Shown in pieces: positions 10,975-51,316 of a stretch of DNA of 64,000 nt (positions are counted from its first letter, which is position 1; each line of letters starts with the position of its first letter). Location of the stretch: contig NZ_AP014509.1 of NCBI RefSeq assembly GCF_000828655.1, positions 434,001 to 498,000 on the forward strand. The letters run 5' to 3'. The translations under genes were made by a program, and so were the position numbers. A model generated the notes under the pieces. That model ran no database searches and was not told the origin of the DNA. It was given only the letters and a program-made list of their open reading frames with translations. The stretch comes from Thermotoga caldifontis AZM44c09. GTDB taxonomy: Bacteria > Thermotogota > Thermotogae > Thermotogales > DSM-5069.

Positions 10975-11003
10975 TTGACGTGTGATGAATTGAGTTTTAA
11001 AAT
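10975..11003 (+). promoter_or_regulatory. Promoter of the diguanylate cyclase gene
   Basis: TTGACG (10975-10980) and TAAAAT (10998-11003) are separated by 17 bp, a good housekeeping-type promoter 24 bases before the ATG. Confidence 0.65.
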
Positions 11004-11026
11004 AAAAAGACAAGAGAGCGTGTTCT

Positions 11027-12709
11027 ATGAAAAGAGCGTATTTGTTCGCAACCTTGATTTTTCTGTTTGTTCTCGCCACTCTGCTCGGGTTCAGACACTT
11101 CGAGGCAGAACGCAGAATCAAACTCGCAAAGCATTTGTACACCCGGGCGGTGGAAAATCTTGCCAGAAGTATCAGTTTGTCACATTTTCAGCGTGACAGA
11201 TTGTTTCGTGCAGTGCTTGAGGAAGATTTCGAAACTGTGCAGGCTGAACTTGAAAGTCTGAAAAGAAATTATCCCATCGTCGAAGATGTGAAGATCGTGG
11301 ATTCAGAGCCGGCAGATTTTGAGTTCTTCGATGTGTCTGCCTCGGGTACGAAGCTGTTGCTTCGCTTCAAAATCCACAACGACCAAGCCACAGATCACGT
11401 TCCAGGCAAGGTTGTCCTCGCGACTGTCGATGGCCCAGGGCTTGCCGAATCCTTGGCCATCGAATGCGTCGAGATAGTTCCCTCCGGTAAGGATTTCGTG
11501 TACGGATTGAAGTACAGATTCAGCAAATTTGTGCTGTTTTTTGAATTGCTCCCTGTCGCTTTCGCACTACCTGCTGTGGGAATGTTTGTAGCACTGTTCG
11601 CGTTCATGAGGAAACAGTTCGATGTGCAAAAGCGTCTCCTGGAAAGAGAGAGGACTTACAGGAATGTTCTGAGTGCGATCGTCGAGCTGAGCAAGATGAT
11701 CCTGAGTGAAGAGAATCTCGAAGGCATGTATCAGACCATACTCGAGAAGGCGCTCGAAGTCATACCCAACGCGCAGGCAGGCAGTATCTTGGTGAAAAGG
11801 CAGAACAGCTACGTGTACGTTGCGGCGGTTGGCTACGATCTGAAAGAGCTTTCCAAAGTTGTTTTTCCTGCCGAGGCCGTTTTTCGCTGGGTGAAGGGTG
11901 CTTCTTCGATAAAGAGAAAGAGCGATGTGGTCTCTTATGAAAGGCGCATCGACGATGAAATGTTCAAAATTCTTCAGAAAGCTGGCAGGTTGGAAGAGAT
12001 CATGTGCAGTCTGAACTTCGCCATAGAGGTGGAAGGTGAGATACTGGCACAGTTGAACCTGGACAACTTCGAAAGGGAAGATGCGTTCAACGAAGAGACG
12101 GTAGAGTTAGCCAACCTCTTTGCGAACCATCTCGGACTGCTGATTTCGAGGCTCAGATCCCAGGAAAAGATACTGCAACAGGAGCGAATGATGGAGTATC
12201 TTTCGAACCACGACGCTTTGACCGGACTCGCCAACAGAAGGCTGTTCCAGGATTACGGTGAAAAGATGATATCTCTCGCCAGGAGAGAACAAAAACCGGT
12301 CGCGGTGCTCTTCATAGACCTCAGCAAGTTCAAGATTGTGAACGATTCGTACGGTCACACTGTCGGTGATGAGGTTTTGAAGATCGTGGGTTCAAGGCTT
12401 GAAAGAGTCCTTCGCGAGAGTGATATAGTGGCGAGATTTGGAGGAGACGAGTTCGTCGCCCTGGTGTACGATTGTACTCCGTCCGACTTGAAGAAAATTG
12501 CGGAGAGGATCATCAGAGGCATCGAGGAACCGATCGAAATCGATGGAAAGACCTTCAAGATCTCGGCGGAGATCGGGGTGTCCGTCTATCCCACAGATGG
12601 CGAGAGTTTGGACGAACTGATCCGCCTCGCCGACGTTTCCATGTATGAAGCGAAGAGGAGAGGTGTCAAGGTCGTGTTCTACGAGGAACTGAAGAGGGAG
12701 ACCAGCTGA
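11027..12709 (+). CDS. GAF-GGDEF diguanylate cyclase, membrane-bound
   Basis: The 560-residue protein has a membrane helix at about 4-21, a roughly 145-residue extracytoplasmic segment, a second helix at about 168-192, a GAF domain at about 210-375 and a C-terminal GGDEF domain. The active-site motif GGDEF is intact at 472-476. The inhibitory c-di-GMP site RESD lies five residues before it (463-466), so product inhibition is expected. It should make c-di-GMP from two GTP in response to signals sensed outside the membrane and by the GAF pocket. The following acetyltransferase gene overlaps its stop (TGATG), so the two are co-translated. No EAL or HD-GYP phosphodiesterase gene is visible nearby. 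Confidence 0.92.
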   Translation: MKRAYLFATLIFLFVLATLLGFRHFEAERRIKLAKHLYTRAVENLARSISLSHFQRDRLFRAVLEEDFETVQAELESLKRNYPIVEDVKIVDSEPADFEFFDVSASGTKLLLRFKIHNDQATDHVPGKVVLATVDGPGLAESLAIECVEIVPSGKDFVYGLKYRFSKFVLFFELLPVAFALPAVGMFVALFAFMRKQFDVQKRLLERERTYRNVLSAIVELSKMILSEENLEGMYQTILEKALEVIPNAQAGSILVKRQNSYVYVAAVGYDLKELSKVVFPAEAVFRWVKGASSIKRKSDVVSYERRIDDEMFKILQKAGRLEEIMCSLNFAIEVEGEILAQLNLDNFEREDAFNEETVELANLFANHLGLLISRLRSQEKILQQERMMEYLSNHDALTGLANRRLFQDYGEKMISLARREQKPVAVLFIDLSKFKIVNDSYGHTVGDEVLKIVGSRLERVLRESDIVARFGGDEFVALVYDCTPSDLKKIAERIIRGIEEPIEIDGKTFKISAEIGVSVYPTDGESLDELIRLADVSMYEAKRRGVKVVFYEELKRETS

Positions 12710-13305
12710 TGCGAGAATACAGATTGCATTTTTCGCGAGCCGAACCTCACGAAGCACAGGAATTCGCCGAACTGACGCTCATGAGCGGGGAAAGCTTCCT
12801 CGAAGCACTGTTTGGCCCGAAGGTGAAAGACGTCCTCAAAACGCTGTACGTGGAAACTTCGAATCTCTTCAGCCATGAGTGCTGTGTTTTTGCCAGATTG
12901 GAACGAAAGGTCGTCGGAATGATGCTCGGTTACGATCGTTCGTACGCGGTGAAGAACAGATTGAGAACTGGCAGATTGCTCCTCGAACAGCTCGGATTGT
13001 TGAAGTTGTTTCGCCTCATCAAGCTTGACAGGGCGCTTGGAAGACACGAAGAGGGAGAATTCTACCTCAGCAACTTCGCAGTCTACCCGCAGTACAGAGG
13101 CAAAGGTTTCGGGAAAGAGATGCTCGAGTATTGTTTCGATTGGGCCAAAAAATTGGGCTGTTCGACTGTGCGTCTTGACGTTGAAAAGAACAACGAGATC
13201 GCGATGAGACTGTATTCGAAGATGGGTTTCGAAGTCGAAAGAGAGTCGAAGATCAGGCTCGCGAATCGAACGTTCGAATTCGTCAGGATGTGCAGAACGA
13301 TTTGA
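12709..13305 (+). CDS. GNAT-family N-acetyltransferase
   Basis: This 198-residue protein has the GNAT fold. The acetyl-CoA-binding motif A reads FAVYPQYRGKGFGKEML (R/Q-x-x-G-x-G/A), preceded by the beta-4 strand GEFYLSN. The motif B region follows as LDVEKNNEIAMRLYSKMGF, typical of RimI-like enzymes. It transfers acetyl from acetyl-CoA to an amine; the acceptor is unknown. The ATG overlaps the stop of the diguanylate cyclase by one base, so expression is linked. The N-terminal third (to about residue 100) is helical and not specific to any named subfamily. Confidence 0.85.
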   Translation: MREYRLHFSRAEPHEAQEFAELTLMSGESFLEALFGPKVKDVLKTLYVETSNLFSHECCVFARLERKVVGMMLGYDRSYAVKNRLRTGRLLLEQLGLLKLFRLIKLDRALGRHEEGEFYLSNFAVYPQYRGKGFGKEMLEYCFDWAKKLGCSTVRLDVEKNNEIAMRLYSKMGFEVERESKIRLANRTFEFVRMCRTI

Positions 13306-13483
13306 AAAGGTGGATGCTCTGAACCGTTAACCTGGTGAGCCACGATCTGTATTTTCACGTGAAACGAACCCGACACACCATCGTCTTCATGCCGTGCAGA
13401 ATGAACGAGTAAGATCAAACGGTTTTTCAACGCGTGAAATGGAAGTGTATTTCGATGCCGTCATATCGACGAATCAGTGATGT

Positions 13484-13921
13484 TCAAACCTTTTCCCACG
13501 GTTCGATGGGACCTTCGACGATGTAAAAAACAGGATTCACGCGTATCTCGTCTGGAATCTCTGCACACACGTTTTTGTATCGCTCAGGGTCTCTGAGACT
13601 CAATTTCCTACACAGATGGTGAAATTCGTATTCAACCTGGCCGGTGGTGACGGGAATCATCCTCGTCAGGACGATGCTCGCATCGATCCTGGAAGTATCG
13701 AAGCTGTAGCCTCTCTTTCTGGCCTCTTCGAACACGAAATAGAGAAAGGAATTTATCGCTATTAGCGGTTCGCTGCAGTTTTTGAACCTGACAAGCTGTG
13801 GATGGTTCCTGTAACCCTTCGTTTTTCCCTCAAGCACCTTCTTCGCGAGCAATCCTTCCCGCCACACTGCGAGCAAACCTTTCACATCCAGATATTCAGG
13901 AGATATCGACCACAGCCTCAC
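13484..13921 (-). CDS. Pyrimidine-dimer DNA glycosylase family protein (PF03013-like)
   Basis: The sequence begins RLWSISPEYLDVKGLLAVWR and continues with LLAKKVLEGKTKGYRNHPQL, which is the N-terminal signature of small proteins annotated as pyrimidine-dimer DNA glycosylase / endonuclease V. Length (about 145 residues) fits. The start is placed at the GTG at 13921: it follows GGTGG by 5 bases and gives the family-typical beginning, while the ATG at 13933 sits only 4 bases from the -10 box. If the family function holds, it cleaves the glycosyl bond at UV dimers. A catalytic N-terminal residue as in T4 endonuclease V is not obvious by eye, so activity is uncertain. Confidence 0.65.
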   Translation of the reverse strand: MRLWSISPEYLDVKGLLAVWREGLLAKKVLEGKTKGYRNHPQLVRFKNCSEPLIAINSFLYFVFEEARKRGYSFDTSRIDASIVLTRMIPVTTGQVEYEFHHLCRKLSLRDPERYKNVCAEIPDEIRVNPVFYIVEGPIEPWEKV

Positions 13922-13937
13922 GAAAACCACCATCGAT

Positions 13938-13968
13938 ATTATAGAGTGAAGCGTTTAGATCTTAAACG
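13938..13968 (-). promoter_or_regulatory. Promoter -10 and palindrome before the glycosylase gene
   Basis: On the minus strand TATAAT lies at 13943-13938. Upstream is the palindrome CGTTTA-GATCT-TAAACG (13952-13968), which overlaps where the -35 would be. This arrangement suits a repressor or activator site. The leader would be only about 10 bases. Confidence 0.5.
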
Positions 13969-14607
13969 TGACTAAGTTCTGGGACGCGCTCTGAAACTGG
14001 AAAAATTTCACTCTAAAATCAGGAAACCCTTTCTGATCTCACTTTTCGAAATTTTCCCCTCCCCCTCGGTCCGTATCTTACTTATGGGAGACGTCTTCCG
14101 AAGTTTTCACAGAGAGAAAGGTCCGTCGTAAGCGGGATAGGTCTAATCCTTCAGGATCCTGCCACGCTCTTCTGGTTCACTTTCAACGCTTCTGTGAATC
14201 ACAGGTTCATCTATTAAGGAAGAATAATTCAGTTCGAACCTCTGAGCGATTGAGAAACTCTGCTGAAAAATAATCTGTTGCCCGTTCGAAGCTGGCCAAC
14301 ACAAGAATCCTTTCTCGAAGAATTTCATTAGGTCCATGCAACGTTTCGAAGTTCACAAGATCGATGAGACGGTACGAGCGAACAGTGAAAATCGAATCTG
14401 TGAAATGAATAGAATGAACATGGCAGAGAACATAGCAGAAGAACGGAGCCACAGAGCGGTTCGAACGAAGTGAACACAAAAAATCGAGAACGAATAAAGG
14501 AAAAAGCACGGAGATCAAAAAGAAAAAATCTGCCCGCACACGCGGGCTTTTTGTTTTTGTTCTTCACGCAGCACAGTAATCGTTCTTTAAAGGTTGGTTA
14601 CTGACAC
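13969..14607 (+). other. Gene-poor stretch, no recognisable gene
   Basis: About 640 bases without a supported gene. A short plus-strand frame of 45 codons (14336 to about 14473, beginning MQRFEVHKIDETVRANSENR) ends some 60 bases before a terminator, but it resembles nothing I recognise. Minus-strand frames here are Phe/Leu/Ser-rich artefacts of an A-rich plus strand. It may hold a decayed gene or an unrecognised RNA. Confidence 0.4.
14532..14552 (+). terminator. Intrinsic terminator without an obvious gene upstream
   Basis: GCCCGC-ACAC-GCGGGC followed by TTTTTG on the plus strand. No recognisable plus-strand gene precedes it, so it either closes a decayed gene or an unrecognised transcript. 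Confidence 0.7.
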
Positions 14608-14656
14608 TTGACTGAGATAGTCTCCAAGTTATATAATCAAAATGGAGAATATCTCC
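14608..14656 (+). promoter_or_regulatory. Promoter of the nanE operon with two operator-like repeats
   Basis: TTGACT (14608-14613) and TATAAT (14632-14637) are 18 bp apart. One inverted repeat, TGAGATAGTCTCCA (14613-14626), fills the spacer. A second, TGGAGAATATCTCC (14643-14656), lies just after the -10. The reverse complement of the first matches the second at 12 of 14 positions, and their centres are 30 bp apart, about three helical turns. They are probable binding sites for the RpiR-type regulator encoded at the end of the operon. Confidence 0.65.
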
Positions 14657-14669
14657 GGGAGGCATCGTC

Positions 14670-15353
14670 TTGAGACAGCTAAAGAGAGGAATAATCATAA
14701 GCTGTCAGCTGGAACCAGGTGATCCTATAGAAGATGTCTCATTCATTGTCAACATGGCCAAAGCGGCAGAATGGGCTGGGGCTGTTGCCATACGCACCAA
14801 TGGGCCAGAGCACGTTAAAGCCGTGAAGGATTCCGTTTCTCTTCCGGTTATAGGTCTCGTCAAGGATAGAAACTACGTGACCTTCATTACTCCAACTTTT
14901 GAGCACGCAAAAAGTGTGATTGATGCTGGTGCCGATTTTGTAGCCATAGATTGCACAAGAAGGGAAAGGCCTGTGAGTCTGGCGAAATTTTTTGACCTCA
15001 TGCGAAATCAATTTCCAGATGTTGCTATCATTGCGGATATAGCGGACGAGAAAGACGCGGAGCAGGTGTTTCCACTCAAACCAGATTATTTCGCTACGAC
15101 ACTCTGTGGCTACACAGACTACACATCCGATGTACTTCTACCGAACATCGCACTGGTTGGAAGGTTGGCGGCAAGGTTCGATATTCCAGTGATAGCTGAG
15201 GGAGGTTATTCCACACTCGAGCAGATAGATCTGGCGTTCCAGCTCGGTGCGCACGCTGTGGTCATAGGAACAGCCATCACCAGGCCTTGGCTTGTAATCA
15301 AGATGTTTGTGGATAAGGCGAAAACCATCATAAAGGGGAGGGATGAGGAATGA
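14670..15353 (+). CDS. nanE: N-acetylmannosamine-6-phosphate 2-epimerase
   Basis: This 227-residue TIM-barrel enzyme converts ManNAc-6-P to GlcNAc-6-P. The NanE signature begins at KRGIIISCQLEPGDP, with AAEWAGAVAIRTNGPEHV, then LPVIGLVKDRN and FVAIDCTRRERP. The C-terminal phosphate-binding strand reads IAEGGYSTLEQ, followed by AVVIGTAITRP. It starts with TTG at 14670, 7 bases after GGGAGG. It is the first gene of an operon with a sugar ABC transporter, a ROK kinase and an RpiR regulator, so the imported sugar is probably ManNAc or a compound yielding it. No sialate lyase (nanA), nagA or nagB is in the window. Confidence 0.93.
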   Translation: MRQLKRGIIISCQLEPGDPIEDVSFIVNMAKAAEWAGAVAIRTNGPEHVKAVKDSVSLPVIGLVKDRNYVTFITPTFEHAKSVIDAGADFVAIDCTRRERPVSLAKFFDLMRNQFPDVAIIADIADEKDAEQVFPLKPDYFATTLCGYTDYTSDVLLPNIALVGRLAARFDIPVIAEGGYSTLEQIDLAFQLGAHAVVIGTAITRPWLVIKMFVDKAKTIIKGRDEE

Positions 15354-16645
15354 AGAGGTTTCTGGTGGCACTGGCATTGTTCTCAGCGCTCTTAGTTTTC
15401 GCAGCTACGAAAGTTTCCATGGTTTACTGGCCTGGTCCTGAAAGCGAAGCGATGCAGAAGGTTGTAGATTACTGGAACTCAACCACTGGAAAAAAACTAG
15501 GGATCGAGGTTGAGATTATCAATTTCAGTAGGGAGGGTTTCTGGGAGAAACAAGAAACCCTTCTGAATGCCCGATCATCTGCTGTAGACATCGTTTTCGT
15601 GGCGACCTACATAATCGGAAGACTCGCGCCCCATCTGGTCCCATTGGAAGGATTCAGCTTGGACCCGCAAGTTTTCATAGCTTCAGCCCTTGAAAGTATG
15701 TCTTTCGAAGGATTTCTGTACGGTCTACCTTTGGATGTCAGTAATCATTTCCTGTACTATCGAAAAGATCTTCTCGACAAACTCCTGACGGATACCTCCT
15801 GGAAGGCGAAGTACGAAGAGCTGAGTGAAAAATATCTTGGTGTAAGAATGTCGCCGAAGAAACCGGAAGAATGGAATTGGGATGATTACAAAGCAATGGC
15901 AATATTCTTCACAAAGAAATACAACCCGGAGTCACCTACAGAGTACGGGAATGTATTGCAGATGAAGAATCTCGTCTACAACATAATGATCTGGAACGAT
16001 ACGCTTTGGTCTATGGGTGGAACATGGTTCGATGAAAATGGAAACTTCAAAATCAACACTGAGCCGGCTAAGAAAGCGGCGGCACTTTACAAGGAATTGT
16101 TAGATCTTGGTACAGTTCCTCCAGGCGTCATGACATATGAATTTGGAGAAGCCAACGAAGCTTTTAAAACGGGGAAGGCTTTCATGATGATCCAATGGTC
16201 GGCGGCATACCATATCCTCACAGATAAGAAGGAATCACCTCTGGTGTTCGACAAAGTTGCGATTGGACCTATACCGGGCCCAAAACCTTCAACACATGTG
16301 CATTGCCTCGGTGTTGCACTCAGCAAATACAGTAAGAAAAAGGACGCAGCCTTAAAATTCCTATCGTTCTTGGCAAGTGAGGAAGCAATGAAGATGTACG
16401 CTGAGAATGGTGGAATACCTCCTGTTGAGCCTGTGCTACGGTCCCTCGGTGACAAGAGACCTGAATTTCCAGCAATCGCTGAGCACGTGAAAAAATACGG
16501 GTATGTGGAGAGTACTTCTGGTGAAACCATGGCGATTCTCGAAATCTTGTCCAACAAGTTAACTGCTTATTGGGCTGGACAACTCGAGCTTGAAAAGGCT
16601 CTTGAGGAGGCACAACGTGAGTGTGAAACTCTTTTGAGGAAGTGA
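15350..16645 (+). CDS. Solute-binding protein, family 1, of the ManNAc-type transporter
   Basis: The 431-residue protein has a signal peptide (MKRFLVALALFSALLVFA) and a mature start TKVSMVYWPGPESEAMQKVV typical of family 1 binding proteins. GLPLDVSNHFLYYRKDLL marks the hinge region and FKTGKAFMMIQWSAAY the C-lobe. Its ATG overlaps the nanE stop (ATGA). Family 1 ABC systems are one of the known routes for sialic acid or ManNAc uptake (SatABC-like), so such a ligand is plausible but inferred from context only. A strong hairpin after the gene probably raises its expression relative to the permeases. Confidence 0.9.
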   Translation: MKRFLVALALFSALLVFAATKVSMVYWPGPESEAMQKVVDYWNSTTGKKLGIEVEIINFSREGFWEKQETLLNARSSAVDIVFVATYIIGRLAPHLVPLEGFSLDPQVFIASALESMSFEGFLYGLPLDVSNHFLYYRKDLLDKLLTDTSWKAKYEELSEKYLGVRMSPKKPEEWNWDDYKAMAIFFTKKYNPESPTEYGNVLQMKNLVYNIMIWNDTLWSMGGTWFDENGNFKINTEPAKKAAALYKELLDLGTVPPGVMTYEFGEANEAFKTGKAFMMIQWSAAYHILTDKKESPLVFDKVAIGPIPGPKPSTHVHCLGVALSKYSKKKDAALKFLSFLASEEAMKMYAENGGIPPVEPVLRSLGDKRPEFPAIAEHVKKYGYVESTSGETMAILEILSNKLTAYWAGQLELEKALEEAQRECETLLRK

Positions 16646-16661
16646 CGCCAGCTTTTCGGGC

Positions 16662-16691
16662 GAAACCCCGCGTGCGCCGCGGGGTTTCTTT
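16662..16691 (+). terminator. GC-rich hairpin after the binding-protein gene
   Basis: GAAACCCCGCG pairs perfectly over 11 bp with CGCGGGGTTTC around the loop TGCGC, followed by a short TTTGT. It is a partial terminator or mRNA-stabilising stem between the binding protein and the permeases. Confidence 0.75.
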
Positions 16692-16727
16692 GTATAAAAC
16701 CGGGTGAGGTGGTGACGTATAGTTACG

Positions 16728-17585
16728 ATGACTCGAAGGTTAGTGGGCTATTTATTCTTGCTCCCCCTCCTGGTGAGTGTCGTTGGCTTGACAGTTTATC
16801 TGGTTGTCTCCGCGATAAACATAAGTTTGAAGGAGGTCTACTTCGGTTTTTTAGAGAGCTCACCTTTCGTGGGATTCAAAAACTATGTTCAGGTGTTTCG
16901 ATCTCCAGCTTTCTGGAATGCAATGCGATTCAGCTTGTTTTTTGGTTCGATCACAACTGTTCTTGAGCTATTTTTAGGCTTTTTGCTAGCCTATTTCTAT
17001 TACAGCAAATTTCGTGGACTAAGATTGCCATTCACTCTCTTAATAACACCGATCCTTATGGCGCCTTCACTATTTGGTTTGATGAACAGGATACTATTGA
17101 ACAATTTCATAGGGCTTATTCCTGGCTATATAAAGTTTTTCTTTGGTTTAGACCTAGACTTATTCGCTCCCAAGAATGTGTTCTGGACTCTTGTATTCGT
17201 TGATGCCCTTCAGTGGACTCCTTTCACTTTTCTCGTCATATACGCAGCCCTGATATCAATACCACCTCAATTAATCGAAGCAGCTAATATAGATGGTGCG
17301 AAACGTTTACACATAATCAACTACATTGTTATTCCATACGTAACTCCCGCACTCATTGTAAGTGGATTTCTGAGGTTCCTTGAGTCTTTCAGAGTATTCG
17401 ACACAGTTTATGTTCTAACTGGCGGTGGTCCAGGTTCCTTGACAACCAGCATAAGTATCTACATCTACAGAGTTGGTTTCACGATGGGAAATCAGGGTCT
17501 TGCTAGCGCCGTTGGAATGACTTTGTTCGCATTCATGATGATACCAGCTTTCATTTTCAGCAAGCTAATGAAAAGAAGGTGGTAA
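16728..17585 (+). CDS. Sugar ABC transporter permease, MalF family
   Basis: This 285-residue permease has six membrane segments. The coupling loop reads LIEAANIDGAKRLHIINYI with IP following, near residues 182-204, and TGGGPGSLT is the MalF-type motif near 230. The ATG at 16728 is about 15 bases from GGTGAGGTGG; no better in-frame start exists because a TGA lies at 16713-16715. It pairs with the MalG-type protein whose gene overlaps its 3' end. As in the first sugar operon of the window, the cassette has no ATPase gene. Confidence 0.9.
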   Translation: MTRRLVGYLFLLPLLVSVVGLTVYLVVSAINISLKEVYFGFLESSPFVGFKNYVQVFRSPAFWNAMRFSLFFGSITTVLELFLGFLLAYFYYSKFRGLRLPFTLLITPILMAPSLFGLMNRILLNNFIGLIPGYIKFFFGLDLDLFAPKNVFWTLVFVDALQWTPFTFLVIYAALISIPPQLIEAANIDGAKRLHIINYIVIPYVTPALIVSGFLRFLESFRVFDTVYVLTGGGPGSLTTSISIYIYRVGFTMGNQGLASAVGMTLFAFMMIPAFIFSKLMKRRW

Positions 17586-18403: not shown

Positions 18404-19296
18404 TCATTGCGGCTGTGGATATGGGTGGGACATCAATCAAGGGTGCTCTGATTCGGGATGATAGAATGGGCGAAATGATCGTTAAACTAGTCTGCAGAAA
18501 AAATCCTTTAAAGTCCCTGATCGAATTCATCGATGAGTTAGTTTTTCAGGTCCATGATAATAGTTGTATTATTGACGCTATAGCTATAGCCAGCGCAGGA
18601 AGGATAGATTCAGAACGTGGAGTTGTACTGTACGCTTCGCCAAACATTCCAAACTGGACAGGCACTCCCTTAGCTAAGATTTTATCGGAGCGCTACAAGA
18701 CGCCATGTTTTGTGCTCAACGACGCGAGAGCAGCTGCGCTCGGTGAGGCCAGGATCCGGAACGTCGACAACTTAGTGATGCTGACCATTGGTACAGGGTT
18801 AGGTGGAGGGATTATAGTAAACGGGAAATTGATTCATGGCGTGCACTATGAGGCTGGTGAAATAGGACACACGATTCTTAAACCGAACGGCAGAAGCTGT
18901 AACTGTGGCAAGAGAGGTTGTGCGGAACAGTATATATCCATGAGAGTACTACACAGGTACAGTGGTATAAAGGATAGAAGGCAGCTGCTGGAGATGTTCC
19001 AGAAGCAGGAAGAGAGAGTCATCAGGGCCGTCGAACGTATGTGTGAAGATCTGGCTGTGCTGGTTGATAAGCTCTTCTTGACGCTTGATCCAAGCCTCGT
19101 AGTCATTGGAGGGGGATTCTCTGAGCTTGGGCCGTATGCACTTGAGATACTCAGAAAAAAGGCGGAACCGTACGCGAGTAGATCCCTGTACAACACGTCA
19201 CAAATAGAACTTTCAATGCTCAAGAACGAAGCGGGTATGATCGGTGCGGCAATTTATGCACAGGAGAAACTCTCCGGGGTGGTGAATTGTGATTGA
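18400..19296 (+). CDS. nanK: ROK-family sugar kinase (probable N-acetylmannosamine kinase)
   Basis: The 298-residue protein starts AVDMGGTSIKGALI, the ROK phosphate-binding loop. It continues with VLNDARAAALGEAR, containing the catalytic Asp in ND, then LTIGTGLGGGIIVNGKL and HYEAGEIGHTIL, where the ExGH motif is intact. The zinc-binding motif CNCGKRGCAEQYIS follows. ROK kinases phosphorylate glucose, ManNAc, GlcNAc or fructose. Adjacent nanE implies ManNAc to ManNAc-6-P. The true start is the ATG at 18400, overlapping the permease stop; sequence before it in the same frame is antisense-like read-through of the permease gene. Confidence 0.88.
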   Translation: MIIAAVDMGGTSIKGALIRDDRMGEMIVKLVCRKNPLKSLIEFIDELVFQVHDNSCIIDAIAIASAGRIDSERGVVLYASPNIPNWTGTPLAKILSERYKTPCFVLNDARAAALGEARIRNVDNLVMLTIGTGLGGGIIVNGKLIHGVHYEAGEIGHTILKPNGRSCNCGKRGCAEQYISMRVLHRYSGIKDRRQLLEMFQKQEERVIRAVERMCEDLAVLVDKLFLTLDPSLVVIGGGFSELGPYALEILRKKAEPYASRSLYNTSQIELSMLKNEAGMIGAAIYAQEKLSGVVNCD

Positions 19297-44180: not shown

Positions 44181-44236
44181 AAGTGTGAACGATTTGGGAA
44201 AACGATTGACCATCTTTGAAGAGGAGGATTTAGCGC

Positions 44237-45232
44237 TTGCCAACCCTTAGAGATGTGGCAAATTTGGCCAACGTTTCTGTCTCGACCGTCTCGAAGGTTC
44301 TCAACGGTAAAGGGCGCGTGAGTGAGGCGAAGAAAAAAGAAATTCTCAAAATCGCGAGAGAGCTCGGCTACACGCCCAACTATCATGCGCGCAACATGGC
44401 ACGAAAGAGCAAGATACTCACCGTGGGGCTCATCGTGCCGGACATCATAAACCCGTTCTTTGCGAGGCTCACGCGCGGAGTTCAGAAGGCCTGTGGTGAG
44501 GACACGCTCGTCATACTGATGGATTCTTTCAGAAACTTGGAGAGAGAGGAAAAACTCATCAGGAATGCGAGGTTTTTCGGAATCGATGGGATCATCATTG
44601 GAAACTCGCGTGTCAGCGACGATCTGGTGGAAGAGATTTCCGATTACATCCCGGTGGTGGTTTTCGACAAGTTCTACGAGCTCGACAACGTTGTCTCGAT
44701 CGTGCTGGACAACCGCTACGGTGCGTACATGGCGACGAAACACCTGATCGAAAACGGTTGCAGGAACATAGTCCATCTCGGTGGAACGCACGAACTGTAC
44801 GTTTCTCTGGAGAGGGCGAAGGGCTACGAAGCGGCCATGAACGAGGCGGGTTTAAAAGCGTTCGTTGAACCGGTTGGGTACAACGAATCTGCTGGTTACG
44901 AAGGGATGAAGAGATTGCTCGAAGAGGGTGTTCAGATCGATGGTGTGTTCTGCATGAACGATCTCGTCGCGATAGGTGCTATGAGGGCGCTGAAGGAAAG
45001 AAATCTTAAGATTCCGAGCGACGTGGCGATCGTTGGATTCGACAACGATGAAGAGCTGTGTGAGATCATCGATCCACCTCTGAGTTCGGTTCATCAGCCT
45101 GTGGAGGAGATGGGTGAGGTCGCGGCGAAACTGCTCTTCGAACTGATCAAGGGAAATTCGAAGATAAAACGTTACGTGTTTTCCCCAAGGCTCGTGGTCA
45201 GACGCTCGAGCTTGAAGAAGGTGGATCTATGA
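44237..45232 (+). CDS. LacI-family transcriptional regulator
   Basis: This 331-residue regulator has an N-terminal helix-turn-helix (TLRDVANLANVSVSTVSKVL), the hinge helix region YTPNYHARNMARKSKI and a periplasmic-binding-protein-like sensor domain (about 60-330) with LIVPDIINPFFARLTRGV and VAIVGFDNDEELCEIIDPPL. It starts with TTG at 44237, 9 bases after GAGGAGG. It is the first gene of a seven-gene cassette ending with a TIM-barrel enzyme, so it probably represses the cassette until the sugar ligand appears. The 3' end overlaps the deacetylase gene by 4 bases. Confidence 0.93.
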   Translation: MPTLRDVANLANVSVSTVSKVLNGKGRVSEAKKKEILKIARELGYTPNYHARNMARKSKILTVGLIVPDIINPFFARLTRGVQKACGEDTLVILMDSFRNLEREEKLIRNARFFGIDGIIIGNSRVSDDLVEEISDYIPVVVFDKFYELDNVVSIVLDNRYGAYMATKHLIENGCRNIVHLGGTHELYVSLERAKGYEAAMNEAGLKAFVEPVGYNESAGYEGMKRLLEEGVQIDGVFCMNDLVAIGAMRALKERNLKIPSDVAIVGFDNDEELCEIIDPPLSSVHQPVEEMGEVAAKLLFELIKGNSKIKRYVFSPRLVVRRSSLKKVDL

Positions 45233-45858
45233 AAAGGATACTGGTTGTCGCGGCGCACAGCGACGATCCCATCATAGGTGCTGGCGGAACGATGAGGGAA
45301 CTTTCGCTGCGGCAGAACCGTGTCTGCGCACTGAGCGTTTGTGGAGATAGGATAGATGGTTACCTCGAAGCCATGAAATTGCTCGGAGCAGAGGCAGAAA
45401 AGTTCGGTTTTTCGTACGGTCAGATAGACGAGGTGGTTCTCTCGAAAGCGCTCAGAAAGTTCATGGAGAGTTTCGACCCAGACATAGTTTTCACACACTT
45501 CTACAGTGAGATCCTGTACGACCATGAGGTTGTTTCAAAGATCACCATCGATATTGCGAGAAGGTTCGAAAAGGAGATCTATCTGTTCGAGATTCCAGCT
45601 TCGAGTCTGGACTTTCAGTTCGACGTGGCGATCGATATATCAGGTTCCTACGAATTCAAAAAGAGGGCCATAGAGCTCATGAAGAACGCTTTCGATGAGG
45701 ACGTCTACGAGAAGGAGATCATGCCATCGATCATCTTCCCGGCGGGCTTCAGGGGCATTCAAACCGGTTGCGCCTACGCAGAGGTGTTCAAACATTTAGG
45801 AAGCAGGTTCCCACTGTCTCCGCACAGAAAGAAGCTGATCGATCTGGAAAAACTCTGA
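45229..45858 (+). CDS. PIG-L/LmbE-family deacetylase
   Basis: This 209-residue zinc hydrolase has the family motif AAHSDDPIIGAGGTMREL (usual AHPDD, here AHSDD) with His and Asp zinc ligands. A further His lies in FTHFYSEILYDHEVVSK. Family members remove N-acetyl from GlcNAc-type sugars or conjugates (PIG-L, MshB, BshB). In this operon it suggests that the imported compound carries an N-acyl-amino sugar. No signal peptide is seen, so it acts in the cytoplasm. It is unusually small but keeps the metal motifs. Confidence 0.87.
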   Translation: MKRILVVAAHSDDPIIGAGGTMRELSLRQNRVCALSVCGDRIDGYLEAMKLLGAEAEKFGFSYGQIDEVVLSKALRKFMESFDPDIVFTHFYSEILYDHEVVSKITIDIARRFEKEIYLFEIPASSLDFQFDVAIDISGSYEFKKRAIELMKNAFDEDVYEKEIMPSIIFPAGFRGIQTGCAYAEVFKHLGSRFPLSPHRKKLIDLEKL

Positions 45859-45870
45859 GGGGGTGAGTGC

Positions 45871-46896
45871 GTGAAGAAGGTAAGAATCGGTATCGTGGGC
45901 GCGGGAAAGATATCTGAAGTGTTGCACATCCCAAACACGATCCTTTCCGAGTACGCACAGCTCGTGGCGATAGCAGACCCGAACGCGCAGAGGCTGGAAC
46001 AATTCAAACGAAAGCTTGAAAATGTGAGGTTTTACGAGGATTATCGACAGATGCTCGAGAAGGAAGACATAGATGCTGTCATCGTGGCCACTCCGAACGC
46101 ACTGCACGCGGAAGTTTCCATCGCCGCACTCGAGAAAGGGAAAAACGTGCTGGTGGAAAAACCCATGGCCACGAACTCGGGAGACGCTCTGAAGATGATC
46201 GAGGCTGCCAAGGAGAACAGGAAGGTTCTGATGGTCAACCACTCGCAGAGGTTCTTCCCGCACCATATCAAAGCAAAAGAGATCGTTCAATCCGGCGTGC
46301 TGGGGGAGATAAGACTCGTCAAGACCATGTTTGGACACGCCGGTCCGGAGAACTGGTCTCCGAGCGCAGCGTGGTTCTTCGACAAGAACGTTGCCATGTT
46401 TGGAGCCCTTGGCGATCTCGGCGTTCACAAGGTGGACCTGATCAGATACATCACCGGCCTGGACATCGTGGAGTGCACAGGATTCATCGCAACGCTCGAA
46501 AAACGGGCATCGGTGGAGGACGTAGCGAGTGCGGTTCTGAGACTTTCCAACTCAAGCCTGGCGACACTCGATTCGAACTGGATCACGAAAGGACTCGAGG
46601 AAAACTACTTCGTCGTTTACGGAGAGAAGGGCACGATGAAGGTGGGACAGACCGACCCGACGAAGATCGACATATATCTCGAAAAACCTTTCAGGATGCA
46701 CGGTGAGATCGTTTTGAGACCGCTGTTCACCAACGAAGATCCTTACTGGAAGATGCCGGTCGTGGACCACTTCGCGAAGGTGTGCCTCGGTTTGGAAGAG
46801 CCCATCGTGAAGCCTGAAGATGGATACATCGCGGTCAAAGTGGTCGAGAGGATATTCGAATCTGCAAAGAGAGGGCAGGCAGTGAAGGTAGAATGA
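45871..46896 (+). CDS. Gfo/Idh/MocA-family oxidoreductase
   Basis: This 341-residue NAD(P)-dependent dehydrogenase has a Rossmann start (KVRIGIVGAGKISEVLHIPN), VIVATPNALHAEVSIAALEK, the catalytic Lys motif VEKPMATNSGDALKMI and the C-terminal alpha/beta domain with DLGVHKVDLIRYITG. Family members oxidise sugars or inositols, often at C3, making 3-keto glycosides. It starts with GTG at 45871 behind GAGGGGGTG. Its 3' end overlaps the transporter ATPase by 4 bases, so it is likely to act on the imported substrate together with the TIM-barrel enzyme of the same operon. Confidence 0.92.
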   Translation: MKKVRIGIVGAGKISEVLHIPNTILSEYAQLVAIADPNAQRLEQFKRKLENVRFYEDYRQMLEKEDIDAVIVATPNALHAEVSIAALEKGKNVLVEKPMATNSGDALKMIEAAKENRKVLMVNHSQRFFPHHIKAKEIVQSGVLGEIRLVKTMFGHAGPENWSPSAAWFFDKNVAMFGALGDLGVHKVDLIRYITGLDIVECTGFIATLEKRASVEDVASAVLRLSNSSLATLDSNWITKGLEENYFVVYGEKGTMKVGQTDPTKIDIYLEKPFRMHGEIVLRPLFTNEDPYWKMPVVDHFAKVCLGLEEPIVKPEDGYIAVKVVERIFESAKRGQAVKVE

Positions 46897-48398
46897 GCGC
46901 GATTCTTTCTGCGAGGAACATCTGCATGGACTTTTCGAACGTGAGAGTCCTGCACAACGTCGATGTCGACTTCGAGCCGGCTAGGATCTACGGTGTGGTC
47001 GGTGAGAACGGAGCCGGAAAATCGACACTCATGAGGATCCTTTCGGGTTTTTTGCAGCCGACCGAAGGAGAGATCTTCTTCGAAGGGAAAAAGGTCGAGC
47101 TGAATCCGCTCAAAGCCAAATCCCTCGGCATCGTGCTGATACCGCAGGAATTGAACCTGGTCGAAAGTCTGAGGGTGTACGAGAACATCTTCCTCAAAGA
47201 CGAGTTGACGAGAAGTTTTCTGCTCGCAAAGAAACAGATGATAGAAGAAACCAAGCAGCTCATGCAGCAGCTCGGGCTCTCCATAGATCCCACAGTTTAC
47301 GTGTCACAGCTTTCACCGGCACAGAAGCAGATGGTCGAGATCATCAAAGCCATATCCAAGAAGGTGAAGGTGCTGATCATGGACGAGCCAACCTCTTCGC
47401 TCACGGACGAGGAGGTGCTCAAGCTCTTCGAGATCGTGAAGAGCATGAAGCAGAAGGGAATAACGGTGATATTCATCTCGCACAGGCTCAAAGAGGTACG
47501 ACAGATAGCTGAAGAACTGATCGTGTTGCGCGATGGAAGAAAGGTCTATCAGGGAGAGGTACAGGGCCTGAGTGAAAAACAGATAGCCGAACTCATGGTC
47601 GGTCGAAAGCTCGAAGAAATCTTTCCTGAAAAACCAGTTCCAGGTTCTGAGATCGTTCTGCAGGTGAAGGACCTCTCAACTCTGGATGGAAGAGTCAGGC
47701 AGGCGAGTTTCGAGCTCCGCAAGGGTGAGATACTCGGTTTCTACGGTCTCGTCGGTTCCGGCAGGACCGAGCTCATGGAAGCGCTCGTGGGAATCAGGAA
47801 GGTGAAGTCCGGTGAGGTGTATCTGTTTGGAAAAAAGGTGAAGATCGAAGATCCCCTGGAAGCGAAAAAGCTGGGGCTCGTTTACCTTCCTGAGGACAGA
47901 AAGAACGGCGGGATCATAGCCAGTCTGGAAGCGTTCAAGAACACAACGATGATGGCCTTGGAGAAATTCTCGAGGCTCTTCGTGCGTGTTCGAAGTGAAC
48001 TCGATACTTTCAAAGGCTACGAAAAGAAGTTCGAGATCAAGGTGCGAAGTCCATGGCAGACCGTTGGGACGCTGAGTGGGGGCAACCAGCAGAAAGTCGT
48101 CATATCCAAACTCGTGGAAACGGGAGCAAAGATCTTTCTGTTCGATGAACCGACGCGCGGCGTGGATGTGAACGCGAGGCACCAGATTTACAAGATCATG
48201 CACCAGATGATAGAGGAACTTGGTTGCAGTTTCGTCGTGGTTTCTTCCGATCTACCAGAGATCATAGGGCTCTGTAACAGGGTCATGGTCATGCGCAACG
48301 GCCAGGTTGTGGCCGAGGTGGAAGGAGAAGACCTCAACGAGAAAGAACTCATCTATCACGCGACGGGTGTGAAGGAGGTCGGTGTGTATCAAACTTAA
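46893..48398 (+). CDS. Sugar ABC transporter ATPase, RbsA/MglA family
   Basis: This 501-residue double-ATPase has a canonical first half, with Walker A GENGAGKSTLMRIL, a signature-like LSPAQKQMVEI and Walker B VLIMDEPTSSLTDEE. In the second half the loop is GLVGSGRTELMEAL, the signature LSGGNQQKVVISK and Walker B IFLFDEPTRGVDV. This asymmetry is normal for RbsA-type proteins. It drives import of a monosaccharide-like compound with the RbsC-type permease. The gene overlaps its neighbours on both sides (4 and 17 bases). Confidence 0.93.
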   Translation: MSAILSARNICMDFSNVRVLHNVDVDFEPARIYGVVGENGAGKSTLMRILSGFLQPTEGEIFFEGKKVELNPLKAKSLGIVLIPQELNLVESLRVYENIFLKDELTRSFLLAKKQMIEETKQLMQQLGLSIDPTVYVSQLSPAQKQMVEIIKAISKKVKVLIMDEPTSSLTDEEVLKLFEIVKSMKQKGITVIFISHRLKEVRQIAEELIVLRDGRKVYQGEVQGLSEKQIAELMVGRKLEEIFPEKPVPGSEIVLQVKDLSTLDGRVRQASFELRKGEILGFYGLVGSGRTELMEALVGIRKVKSGEVYLFGKKVKIEDPLEAKKLGLVYLPEDRKNGGIIASLEAFKNTTMMALEKFSRLFVRVRSELDTFKGYEKKFEIKVRSPWQTVGTLSGGNQQKVVISKLVETGAKIFLFDEPTRGVDVNARHQIYKIMHQMIEELGCSFVVVSSDLPEIIGLCNRVMVMRNGQVVAEVEGEDLNEKELIYHATGVKEVGVYQT

Positions 48399-49326
48399 AG
48401 CCTTTCTCACCAAGTACATGATCGTGCTCGTGCTGATCGGGTTGATGATCTTCTCCGGCATCGTGACACCGGCGTTTCTCAAGCCGAGAAACATTCTGAA
48501 CATCTTCTGGCAGACGTCCTACGTGGGAATCATAGCGATAGGCATCACCTTCGTGATGATCGCCGGCGGGATCGATCTTTCGGTTGGCTCGATGCTCGCG
48601 CTCCTCGGTGCCTTCGCCATAACGACGAGCAACAAGATAGGCGACAGCGTTGGAGCGACGGTGCTTTCGATCCTGCTCACCTACGGTCTTGGTGCTCTGC
48701 TCGGTCTTGGCATGGGCCTGTTGACGACGAAGGGAAAGATTCCCGCGTTCATCACCACGCTCGGCGGCATGGCGATATACAGATCCTTGGTGCTCAACTT
48801 CGCAAACGGTGGAGTGTACATGAGTTTTTCCCGCACCTTCTCCAGTTTCGGCATGAAGTTCATCGCGGGTCTACCTTTACCCATGATCGTGTTCATAGCC
48901 TACGCCGTTCTGGCGTACATCGTTCTGGACAAAACGAAATTTGGGAGGTACGTGTACGCAGTCGGTGCGAACGAAACCGCTGCGGTCTATTCGGCGATAA
49001 AGGTCGATGTGGTCAGAACGATCACGTACGTCATCAGTGGAGTTTCTGTCGCGACTTCGGCCATACTGCTCTCTTCGATGATGGCTTCCGTGAGCTCTTC
49101 GTCGACGGGATCTGGCTTCGAGCTGGACGCGATCGCGGCGGCCGTGATCGGTGGAACGAGTTTGAGCGGTGGAAAGGGTACGATCTTTGGAACGTTCTTC
49201 GGGGCGCTGATACTCGGTGTTGTCAACAACATGCTCGTGATGCTGAATGTGGCAGTGTACCTGCAAGGTATGGTCAAGGGTTTGATCATCATCGCTGCAG
49301 TGTTGCTGCAAAGTTTGAGAAGGTGA
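48382..49326 (+). CDS. Sugar ABC transporter permease, RbsC family
   Basis: This 314-residue membrane protein has 8-10 hydrophobic segments. The RbsC-type motifs are FVMIAGGIDLSVGSMLALLG, then GLLTTKGKIPAFITTLGGMA, FGRYVYAVGANETAAVYSAI and AVIGGTSLSGGKGTIFGTFF. It starts with GTG at 48382 after GAAGGAGGTCG, within the ATPase 3' end. It forms a homodimeric channel with the RbsA-type ATPase. Substrates of the family include ribose, galactose, xylose and inositol. Confidence 0.93.
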   Translation: MCIKLKAFLTKYMIVLVLIGLMIFSGIVTPAFLKPRNILNIFWQTSYVGIIAIGITFVMIAGGIDLSVGSMLALLGAFAITTSNKIGDSVGATVLSILLTYGLGALLGLGMGLLTTKGKIPAFITTLGGMAIYRSLVLNFANGGVYMSFSRTFSSFGMKFIAGLPLPMIVFIAYAVLAYIVLDKTKFGRYVYAVGANETAAVYSAIKVDVVRTITYVISGVSVATSAILLSSMMASVSSSSTGSGFELDAIAAAVIGGTSLSGGKGTIFGTFFGALILGVVNNMLVMLNVAVYLQGMVKGLIIIAAVLLQSLRR

Positions 49327-49362
49327 TAGCCCCGTCGGGGGCGAGAAAGGGGAGGTGTTTGT

Positions 49363-50310
49363 ATGAGGAAGTTCCTGCTCGTGTTGATGGTAGCCGTAGC
49401 TCTGGTGAGCTTCGCGGCGAAGTACAGGATCGGAGTCGCGATTCCAGCAGCGGATCACGGTTGGACTGGTGGCATGGTCTGGTGGGCACAGTACGCGATC
49501 AAGCAGTACCAGAACGATCCGAACGTGGAGTTCTACCTGGTCACTGCGAAAGAACCGAGCGAACAGATCGCTCAGGTTCAAGCGTTGCTCGCGCGCGGAA
49601 TCGACGCACTGGTCATCAACCCGTACGAGTCCGCTCCACTCACACCCATCTGCGTCCAGGCGTTCAGACAGGGCGTTTATACCGTCATCGTTGACAGAGG
49701 CATCGTGTCTGAAGAGTACAACGTTTACATCGCTGGCGACAACTACATGTACGGTTACCTTGCAGGAAAGTACATCGCAGAGAAGCTCAAGGGCAAAGGT
49801 AACATCGTCGTCATAAGGGGCATCCCGTCAACGATCGATGATGAGAGGGTGAAAGCGTTCAAGGACGCAATCGCACCGTATCCAGATCTGAAGATCATCG
49901 CAGAACAGCCCGGTTACTGGTCCAGAGAGAAGGCGTTCGAAGTCATGCAAACGTTGCTCACCAAGTTCCCACAGATCGACGCGGTCTGGACGGGTGACGA
50001 CGATATGCTCCACGGTGTCCTGATCGCACTCAGGCAGGCTGGCAGGGACAAGAACATCATCCTGGTCGGTGGTGCGTGCGAGAAGAACATAGTCAAGATG
50101 ATCATGGATGGCCATCCGCTCATCGAGGTTGACTTCACCTACCCACCCAACATGATTGCCACAGCGATCAACCTTGCGGTCATGGCGCTCAAAGGCGAAT
50201 CTTTGAACGGTTTCTACCAGAAGGGAATCCCGAGAAAGATCATACTCTCAACCGAGACTGTCACCAGGCAGAACGCGAAGGATTACTACTTCCCAGATTC
50301 GGTGTTCTGA
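49363..50310 (+). CDS. Periplasmic sugar-binding protein, RbsB family
   Basis: This 315-residue protein has a signal peptide (RKFLLVLMVAVALVSFA) and mature start YRIGVAIPAADHGWTGGMVW. VQALLARGIDALVINPYES is the family motif in the N-lobe, and IDAVWTGDDDMLHGVLIALR the C-lobe loop contacting sugar. The many aromatic residues near the start of the mature protein are typical of sugar stacking. It delivers the substrate to the RbsC/RbsA pair. A GC-rich hairpin follows the gene. The ligand is unknown, but the flanking deacetylase and dehydrogenase suggest a modified sugar. Confidence 0.92.
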   Translation: MRKFLLVLMVAVALVSFAAKYRIGVAIPAADHGWTGGMVWWAQYAIKQYQNDPNVEFYLVTAKEPSEQIAQVQALLARGIDALVINPYESAPLTPICVQAFRQGVYTVIVDRGIVSEEYNVYIAGDNYMYGYLAGKYIAEKLKGKGNIVVIRGIPSTIDDERVKAFKDAIAPYPDLKIIAEQPGYWSREKAFEVMQTLLTKFPQIDAVWTGDDDMLHGVLIALRQAGRDKNIILVGGACEKNIVKMIMDGHPLIEVDFTYPPNMIATAINLAVMALKGESLNGFYQKGIPRKIILSTETVTRQNAKDYYFPDSVF

Positions 50311-50316
50311 AAAGTT

Positions 50317-50338
50317 GAGGCGGGCTCTCGCCCGCCTC
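50317..50338 (+). terminator. Hairpin after the RbsB-type gene
   Basis: GAGGCGGGC-TCTC-GCCCGCCTC, a 9-bp perfect stem with a short TT; likely partial termination before the TIM-barrel gene. Confidence 0.7.
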
Positions 50339-50356
50339 TTCGTTGGAGGTGACTCG

Positions 50357-51274
50357 ATGAAGATCGGTTTCCTGACGGTCGCGCTGGGCAACACGAAATT
50401 CGATGAAATCGTTGAGTGGGCCGCGAGCGCTGGTTTTGAGGCTTTAGAAGTTGCCGCCTGGCCTTTGGTGAACGAGAGGGACTTTTCTTCCACCACGATC
50501 GATGTTGATAAGTTCGACAGGAAAGAAGCAGAAAGGATCAAAGCGCTTCTGGAGAAACGTGGCCTGATCATCTCTTCTCTGGCTTATTACGACAACAACC
50601 TCGATGCGAATCCTGAGAAGAGGAGGGCTATAAACGAGCATCTCAAAAAAGTCATCGATGCGGCCAATCTGCTGGGCGTTGAGCTCGTCGGAACGTTCAT
50701 AGGAAGAGACATAACCAAGAGTGTGGAAGAGAACCTGAAGGAGTTCGAAAAGGTTTTCAAACCGTTGATAGCCTACGCCGAGAGCAAGAACGTTAAGCTC
50801 ATGATAGAGAACTGCCCCATGGTGGGCTGGCAGGCAGAAGAGAAGATAGGGAACATCTTCTATTCACCGGAGCTCTGGAGAGAAATATTCAGGATCACCC
50901 CAGATTCTTTTGGACTGAACCTCGATCCGTCACACCTGTACTGGCTCGGTGTGGATTATCTGAAGGTGGTGGAAGAGTTCGCCGACAGAATTTTCCACGT
51001 GCACGCGAAAGATGTTGAGATCAAGAGGAACATGCTCCATGAACAGAGCATCTTTGGACACTTTGGAACCAACGCGCACGGTAAGAGCTGGTGGATCTAC
51101 CGCATGCCCGGCCTCGGCGAGATCGACTGGCCAAGCTTCCTGCTGAATTTGAAAAAGGTTGGGTACGATTTCGTCATCAGCATAGAGCACGAAGATCCCA
51201 TCTGGGCGGGCAGTCTGGAGAAGGCGAAGAAAGGTTTGCTCATGGGATTGCAGTTCCTCAGAAAGCTCGTTTGA
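50357..51274 (+). CDS. Sugar phosphate isomerase/epimerase-like TIM-barrel protein
   Basis: This 305-residue protein has the xylose-isomerase-like fold: MKIGFLTVALGNTKFDEIVE, then VELVGTFIGRD, VKLMIENCPMVGWQAEEKIG with the metal-binding Glu, GLNLDPSHLYWLGVDYLKVV with Asp and His, FHVHAKDVEI and FVISIEHEDPIW with the second Glu. The metal-ligand set is intact. Family members epimerise or dehydrate sugars, and some cleave 3-keto glycosides. Paired with the Gfo/Idh/MocA dehydrogenase it may act on its keto product. The true start is the ATG at 50357 after TTGGAGGTGACTCG. A terminator follows, closing the cassette. Confidence 0.88.
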   Translation: MKIGFLTVALGNTKFDEIVEWAASAGFEALEVAAWPLVNERDFSSTTIDVDKFDRKEAERIKALLEKRGLIISSLAYYDNNLDANPEKRRAINEHLKKVIDAANLLGVELVGTFIGRDITKSVEENLKEFEKVFKPLIAYAESKNVKLMIENCPMVGWQAEEKIGNIFYSPELWREIFRITPDSFGLNLDPSHLYWLGVDYLKVVEEFADRIFHVHAKDVEIKRNMLHEQSIFGHFGTNAHGKSWWIYRMPGLGEIDWPSFLLNLKKVGYDFVISIEHEDPIWAGSLEKAKKGLLMGLQFLRKLV

Positions 51275-51292
51275 AAGTACCGTCAGGGATCG

Positions 51293-51316
51293 AGCCCTCC
51301 AGGCTGGAGGGCTTTT
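51293..51316 (+). terminator. Intrinsic terminator of the LacI cassette
   Basis: AGCCCTCCA-GGC-TGGAGGGCT, a 9-bp perfect stem followed by TTTC, 18 bases after the last stop. Confidence 0.88.

Follow-up and report, generated by a model that had tools for sequence, protein, structure and literature searches.

A tight run of seven plus-strand genes lies at 44237-51274 of the window analysed here, a stretch of 64,000 nucleotides corresponding to positions 434001-498000 of a 2.01-Mb Thermotogota genome (operon coordinates are in window numbering), and is organized in the order LacI-family repressor, PIG-L/LmbE-fold protein (PIG-L), Gfo/Idh/MocA dehydrogenase (DH), RbsA, RbsC, RbsB and AP_endonuc_2 TIM barrel (TIM). 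The new element is a conserved PIG-L subfamily that is tied to one dehydrogenase. The best overall explanation, which we judge about evenly likely to be right, is that the operon would import a glucose-type substrate and cleave it by oxidation, elimination, hydration and reduction, with PIG-L acting in a middle step. The initial annotation put the locus forward as its best candidate for an undescribed system; the class of route is already published (PMC7676230, PMC10628242), while the partnership with PIG-L, and this alone, looks undescribed, and a literature search confined to open-licence papers found none that connects PIG-L to 3-keto routes for sugars. Glycosides are broken down in the 3-keto route by means other than hydrolysis, and few of its lyases are known. 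If our explanation is correct, a thermophilic form of the same route would be built from other parts, namely one dehydrogenase, one TIM barrel and PIG-L, and the PIG-L family would have, alongside GalB, a member that serves as a sugar lyase or hydratase.

Conservation of the operon and its core

The comparison set comprised 103 Thermotogota genomes, the source genome included. PIG-L orthologues (52-95% identity) are present in 18 of these, again counting the source, and the genomes with orthologues of DH (above E 1e-60) are precisely these 18. The seven-gene order is kept in most of the 18, some contigs being too short to judge and the operon genes of one genome (G088) being split over two contigs. 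The initial annotation had described a single LacI-controlled unit of importer, LmbE protein, dehydrogenase and TIM barrel and had proposed conservation of the gene set as a check; all seven genes are where it placed them, and the recurrence of their order bears it out. Ratios of non-synonymous to synonymous substitution (dN/dS) against congeners, where computable, are 0.02-0.10 for all seven genes, and all seven are under purifying selection. Given these ratios and the recurring gene order, the arrangement is not due to chance.

The transporter and the TIM partner vary among genomes. The LacI-PIG-L-DH block is preceded in G002 by a different CUT2 transporter and TIM, and is followed in G056 by a 2zds-type TIM; thus PIG-L and DH form the core of the operon.

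Further variants of the locus were seen. The same chromosomal place in G057 (L100, 8075-10186) holds only a transposase fragment, an RbsB cut to 200 residues and an intact TIM (79%), the other five operon genes having gone, and the operon has therefore been lost there. Three genomes of genus g4 carry a second CUT2 transporter and two more AP_endonuc_2 proteins directly upstream on the same strand (L038, L039 and L040, about 11000-16800). A similar second transporter unit lies downstream of DH-RbsB-TIM in G088 (L104), a genome in which LacI and PIG-L form one 531-residue open frame (L045, 405-2000), either as a gene fusion or through sequencing error. Outside the Thermotogota, no PIG-L orthologue above 30% identity was found in the plasmid collection, where those PIG-L relatives with readable context are in surface-sugar or spore-coat settings, and a single scan of genome contigs produced four records from Thermotogota, one spurious match and nothing else.

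A candidate route for glucose-type substrates

The genes found beside relatives of RbsB and TIM elsewhere are informative as to the class of pathway. In Azospirillum, a 44% RbsB relative stands beside RbsAC, a Gfo/Idh/MocA protein, a ROK protein and a TIM barrel that is a clear orthologue of 8ro4, a 2-hydroxy-3-keto-glucal hydratase (full-length match, 599 bits). RbsB orthologues at 50-52% identity are present in 14 further Thermotogota genomes that lack PIG-L, and in the five of these loci that were read RbsB belongs to a similar DH-TIM-RbsABC locus, with a DH and a 2zds/8ro4-type TIM, and with ROK in three. TIM relatives (37-48%) have Gfo/Idh/MocA and ROK proteins encoded next to them in Chloroflexota, Streptomyces and Enterococcus; in Niallia the neighbour is a ROK glucokinase gene. 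These neighbourhoods argue, with rather better than an even chance, for placing the window operon in the oxidation-elimination-hydration-reduction class, and the context of the RbsB, TIM and DH relatives supports the link to 3-keto-glycoside cleavage drawn in the initial annotation. As in the wider class, a Gfo/Idh/MocA protein, a PF01261 enzyme and an importer are encoded in one operon.

The route, in which oxidation is followed by beta-elimination, hydration and reduction, has been described for levoglucosan (PMC7676230, PMC10066097) and for O-glucosides in Agrobacterium (PMC10628242), and its first two steps for C-glucosides (PMC8563793). The levoglucosan cluster lgdA-lgdB1-lgdB2-lgdC of Bacillus smithii (PMC7676230) likewise groups LacI, an ATP-binding cassette (ABC) importer and Gfo/Idh/MocA and AP_endonuc_2 enzymes, with no kinase among the named enzymes, but it has two dehydrogenases and two TIM barrels where the window operon has one of each plus PIG-L. 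The Agrobacterium enzymes AtOGE and AtHYD, which act with a Gfo oxidoreductase (PMC10628242; hydratase structure 8ro4), share the TIM fold, and it is an 8ro4-type hydratase that lies beside the Azospirillum RbsB relative; in that route, however, the first oxidation is by GlycDH, treated apart from the Gfo oxidoreductase, and there are two lyases and no PIG-L. The dgpABC C-glycoside operon of strain PUE (PMC8563793) resembles ours in that DgpA counts among the solved proteins closest to DH and that an Enterococcus raffinosus relative of TIM is beside a DUF6379 gene, whereas the window operon has no beta subunit or C-glycoside cleaving complex and does contain PIG-L. The E. raffinosus gene is part of a megaplasmid run (L056, 5326-10865) of two Gfo/Idh/MocA proteins, a TIM, DUF6379, the relative of the window TIM and ROK, which resembles a cluster for C-glycoside use.

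By profile, DH comes closest among solved proteins to glucose-fructose oxidoreductase and DgpA, followed closely by aldose-aldose oxidoreductase, and the alignment shows no variation in its catalytic-type residues K97, D182 and H186. DgpA oxidizes its glycoside at C3 and works by a ping-pong cycle in which 3-oxo-glucose resets it (PMC11239390); DH is likely to perform both the C3 oxidation of the sugar and the reduction of the 3-keto product. The metal-type residues of TIM (E151, D190 and E277) are also invariant in the alignment and its nearest solved relatives are 2zds, Art22, IolI and 8ro4, pointing to a metal-dependent enzyme that is likely a hydratase, an eliminase or both. An inositol or amino-inositol (rhizopine-like) pathway, in which a MocA-like DH, a MocB-like binding protein and a MocC/IolE-like TIM would be joined by PIG-L opening or deacylating the ring, would account for the presence of IolG and IolE among the model matches of DH and TIM, and rhizopine MocABC offers a comparable trio. 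We regard it as improbable, in that both matches fall far under their cut-offs (DH to IolG, TIGR04380, 146 against 355 bits; TIM to IolE, TIGR04379, 55 against 290 bits), the context of the relatives indicates glucose-type loci with ROK genes, and no match of the window RbsB is to the rhizopine binding-protein model.

The closest solved relative of RbsB is 4joq (E 5e-68). The transporter is of the RbsABC type, as an ordinary importer of ribose or another monosaccharide with unrelated enzymes adjacent would be, but the operon encodes neither RbsK nor RbsD (in G095 a separate ribose-type operon with RbsD adjoins the sugar operon), RbsB scores 108 bits against the 337-bit cut-off of its equivalog model, and the operon enzymes are co-conserved. 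Aligned with the E. coli ribose protein, RbsB has other residues at N190, F214, D215 and Q235, which we take to be ribose contacts of that protein. As the ribose models score far under their cut-offs and several contacts differ, we rejected ordinary ribose uptake on sequence grounds as having hardly any probability; it was the outcome that the initial annotation had named as telling against its own proposal.

In the glucose-type route that we favour, the CUT2 transporter would import a small glucoside, an anhydrosugar or a glucose-like sugar derivative, which the Gfo/Idh/MocA enzyme would oxidize at C3 to a 3-keto sugar. Of the two middle steps, the single TIM barrel would perform one, with hydration the likelier, and PIG-L would act on a 3-keto intermediate in the other, in place of the additional TIM barrel that related loci have; the free sugar would then be phosphorylated by a kinase encoded elsewhere.

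The role of PIG-L

The PIG-L protein is about 209 residues long, and all 14 members tested match PF02585. Its metal site, HXDD+H, is kept, with H10, D12, D13 and H99 invariant in the alignment and D98 also present. All 18 copies have a leucine (Leu96) in place of MshB His144, so that they lack the His that, as a feature of LmbE/PIG-L de-N-acetylases, lies three positions ahead of the third metal ligand; loss of His144 leaves MshB with <=1% activity, and the corresponding rPIG-L His154 is a proposed acid (PMC4101496). The loss is characteristic of the subfamily rather than unique to it, since the His is kept in four of five other aligned PIG-L proteins and the remaining one has Asn. In the 17 complete copies, a spacer of 83-86 residues separates the second metal ligand from the third, compared with 97-148 in known LmbE-like members (PMC4101496). 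Fold matches are to BshB, diacetylchitobiose deacetylase and GalB (5cgz). MshB, BshB and diacetylchitobiose deacetylase (reviewed in PMC4101496) have the fold and HXDD+H site in common with PIG-L, which departs from them in Leu96, the short spacer, its length and its place in a catabolic operon. GalB, a 4-carboxy-2-hydroxymuconate hydratase, has the PIG-L fold and is named as a hydratase, not a deacetylase, but its match to PIG-L in profile and fold is weak, with 18% identity in the fold alignment, and GalB belongs to an aromatic-acid pathway.

Comparison with loci that lack PIG-L suggests what it may replace. In f8 Thermotogota, the same TIM (~60%) is adjacent to a DH and to a second TIM of 245 residues, with no PIG-L. 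Among the PIG-L genomes only G002 has this small TIM, and there it is encoded at other loci. PIG-L therefore stands where a second TIM stands elsewhere. One of the small-TIM copies in G002 (L103, 8867-10681), of 251 residues, is paired with a DH paralogue (44%), without PIG-L. We tentatively propose, as a possibility short of an expectation, that PIG-L is the missing lyase or hydratase rather than a deacetylase, a metal-dependent enzyme acting on a 3-keto sugar intermediate that has displaced the TIM-barrel lyase in a Thermotogota form of the route; the strict pairing of PIG-L with DH and the inclusion of GalB in the PIG-L fold suggest such a role.

Alternatively, PIG-L may be a true de-N-acylase, the operon importing an N-acylated amino sugar or glycoside that is deacylated before C3 oxidation and TIM-barrel chemistry. 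PIG-L does belong to a de-N-acetylase family (PF02585), its metal triad and general-base Asp are intact, its best profile matches are diacetylchitobiose deacetylases, and NagA is encoded in the genome; DH also scores marginally best against a UDP-N-acetylglucosamine 3-dehydrogenase model, yet at 154 bits against a 450-bit cut-off. Such an N-acyl sugar pathway is possible, if somewhat unlikely, given the invariant leucine and unusually short spacer, the lack of any recognized amino-sugar gene in the operon or its variant loci, and the service of the same transporter family in loci without PIG-L. The initial annotation had taken an N-acylated substrate solely from the PIG-L family name, and this is not supported in a subfamily without the His that MshB needs. 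Were PIG-L nevertheless a deacetylase, it would point to a so far undescribed N-acyl substrate for the 3-keto route.

Several points weigh against a glucose-type route with PIG-L as a lyase or hydratase. The putative substrate, every reaction and the role assigned to PIG-L are drawn from neighbourhood and family, and DH and TIM resemble characterized enzymes at the family level only, all NCBIfam equivalog models for the two being below cut-off; this includes the LgdA orthologue model (NF052479, LevoglcsnDh), against which DH scores 117.6 bits with a cut-off of 650. The exchange of PIG-L and the small TIM tracks phylogeny and may be coincidence. Some related loci have a single TIM and lack PIG-L, and LgdB2 is a bifunctional enzyme (PMC7676230), so the route need not have a step left vacant for PIG-L. 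The PIG-L profile is closer to diacetylchitobiose deacetylase (5e-13) than to GalB (6e-6), and a fold search on the predicted PIG-L structure does not separate the deacetylases from GalB. The two structure models obtained were mediocre (mean predicted local distance difference test scores of 72 and 69).

Regulation and layout of the locus

Operator-like sites are present upstream of the operon in several relatives as well as in the window (Table 1). The regulator is probably a local one, as the genome holds no zero-mismatch site other than the operator TGGGAAAACGATTGACCA, weaker matches being at background level; every LacI regulator equivalog model was below cut-off. A wider regulon was sought by operator search and rejected, the remaining matches equalling those of a reversed-pattern control, and three further operator matches that were inspected gave no convincing additional member.

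Table 1. Features of the operon and its flanks, in window coordinates
Feature	Position	Strand	Basis
LacI-type operator TGGGAAAACGATTGACCA	44195..44212	+	upstream comparison among relatives; motif search of genome
LacI-family repressor	44237..45232	+	PF00356, PF13377
PIG-L/LmbE-fold metalloenzyme	45229..45858	+	PF02585, 43 bits vs 28-bit cut-off
Gfo/Idh/MocA dehydrogenase (DH)	45871..46896	+	PF01408, PF22725
RbsA-type ABC ATPase (CUT2)	46893..48398	+	PF00005 twice
RbsC-type permease	48382..49326	+	PF02653
RbsB-type sugar-binding protein	49363..50310	+	PF13407
Intergenic hairpin GAGGCGGGC-TCTC-GCCCGCCTC, between RbsB and TIM	50317..50338	+	read directly from sequence
AP_endonuc_2 TIM barrel	50357..51274	+	PF01261
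Intrinsic terminator closing operon	51292..51314	+	downstream of TIM

Three pairs of genes overlap, LacI/PIG-L and DH/RbsA by 4 bases each and RbsA/RbsC by 17 bases, and TIM is likely to start at the ATG at 50357 rather than at a TTG at 50315. No kinase gene is present among the seven, as the initial annotation had noted, and it is probably right that the chemistry proceeds on unphosphorylated sugar. ROK proteins are encoded elsewhere in the genome, and one ROK-family protein (204 bits) is encoded within the window at 18409-19266, ~25 kb upstream of the operon.

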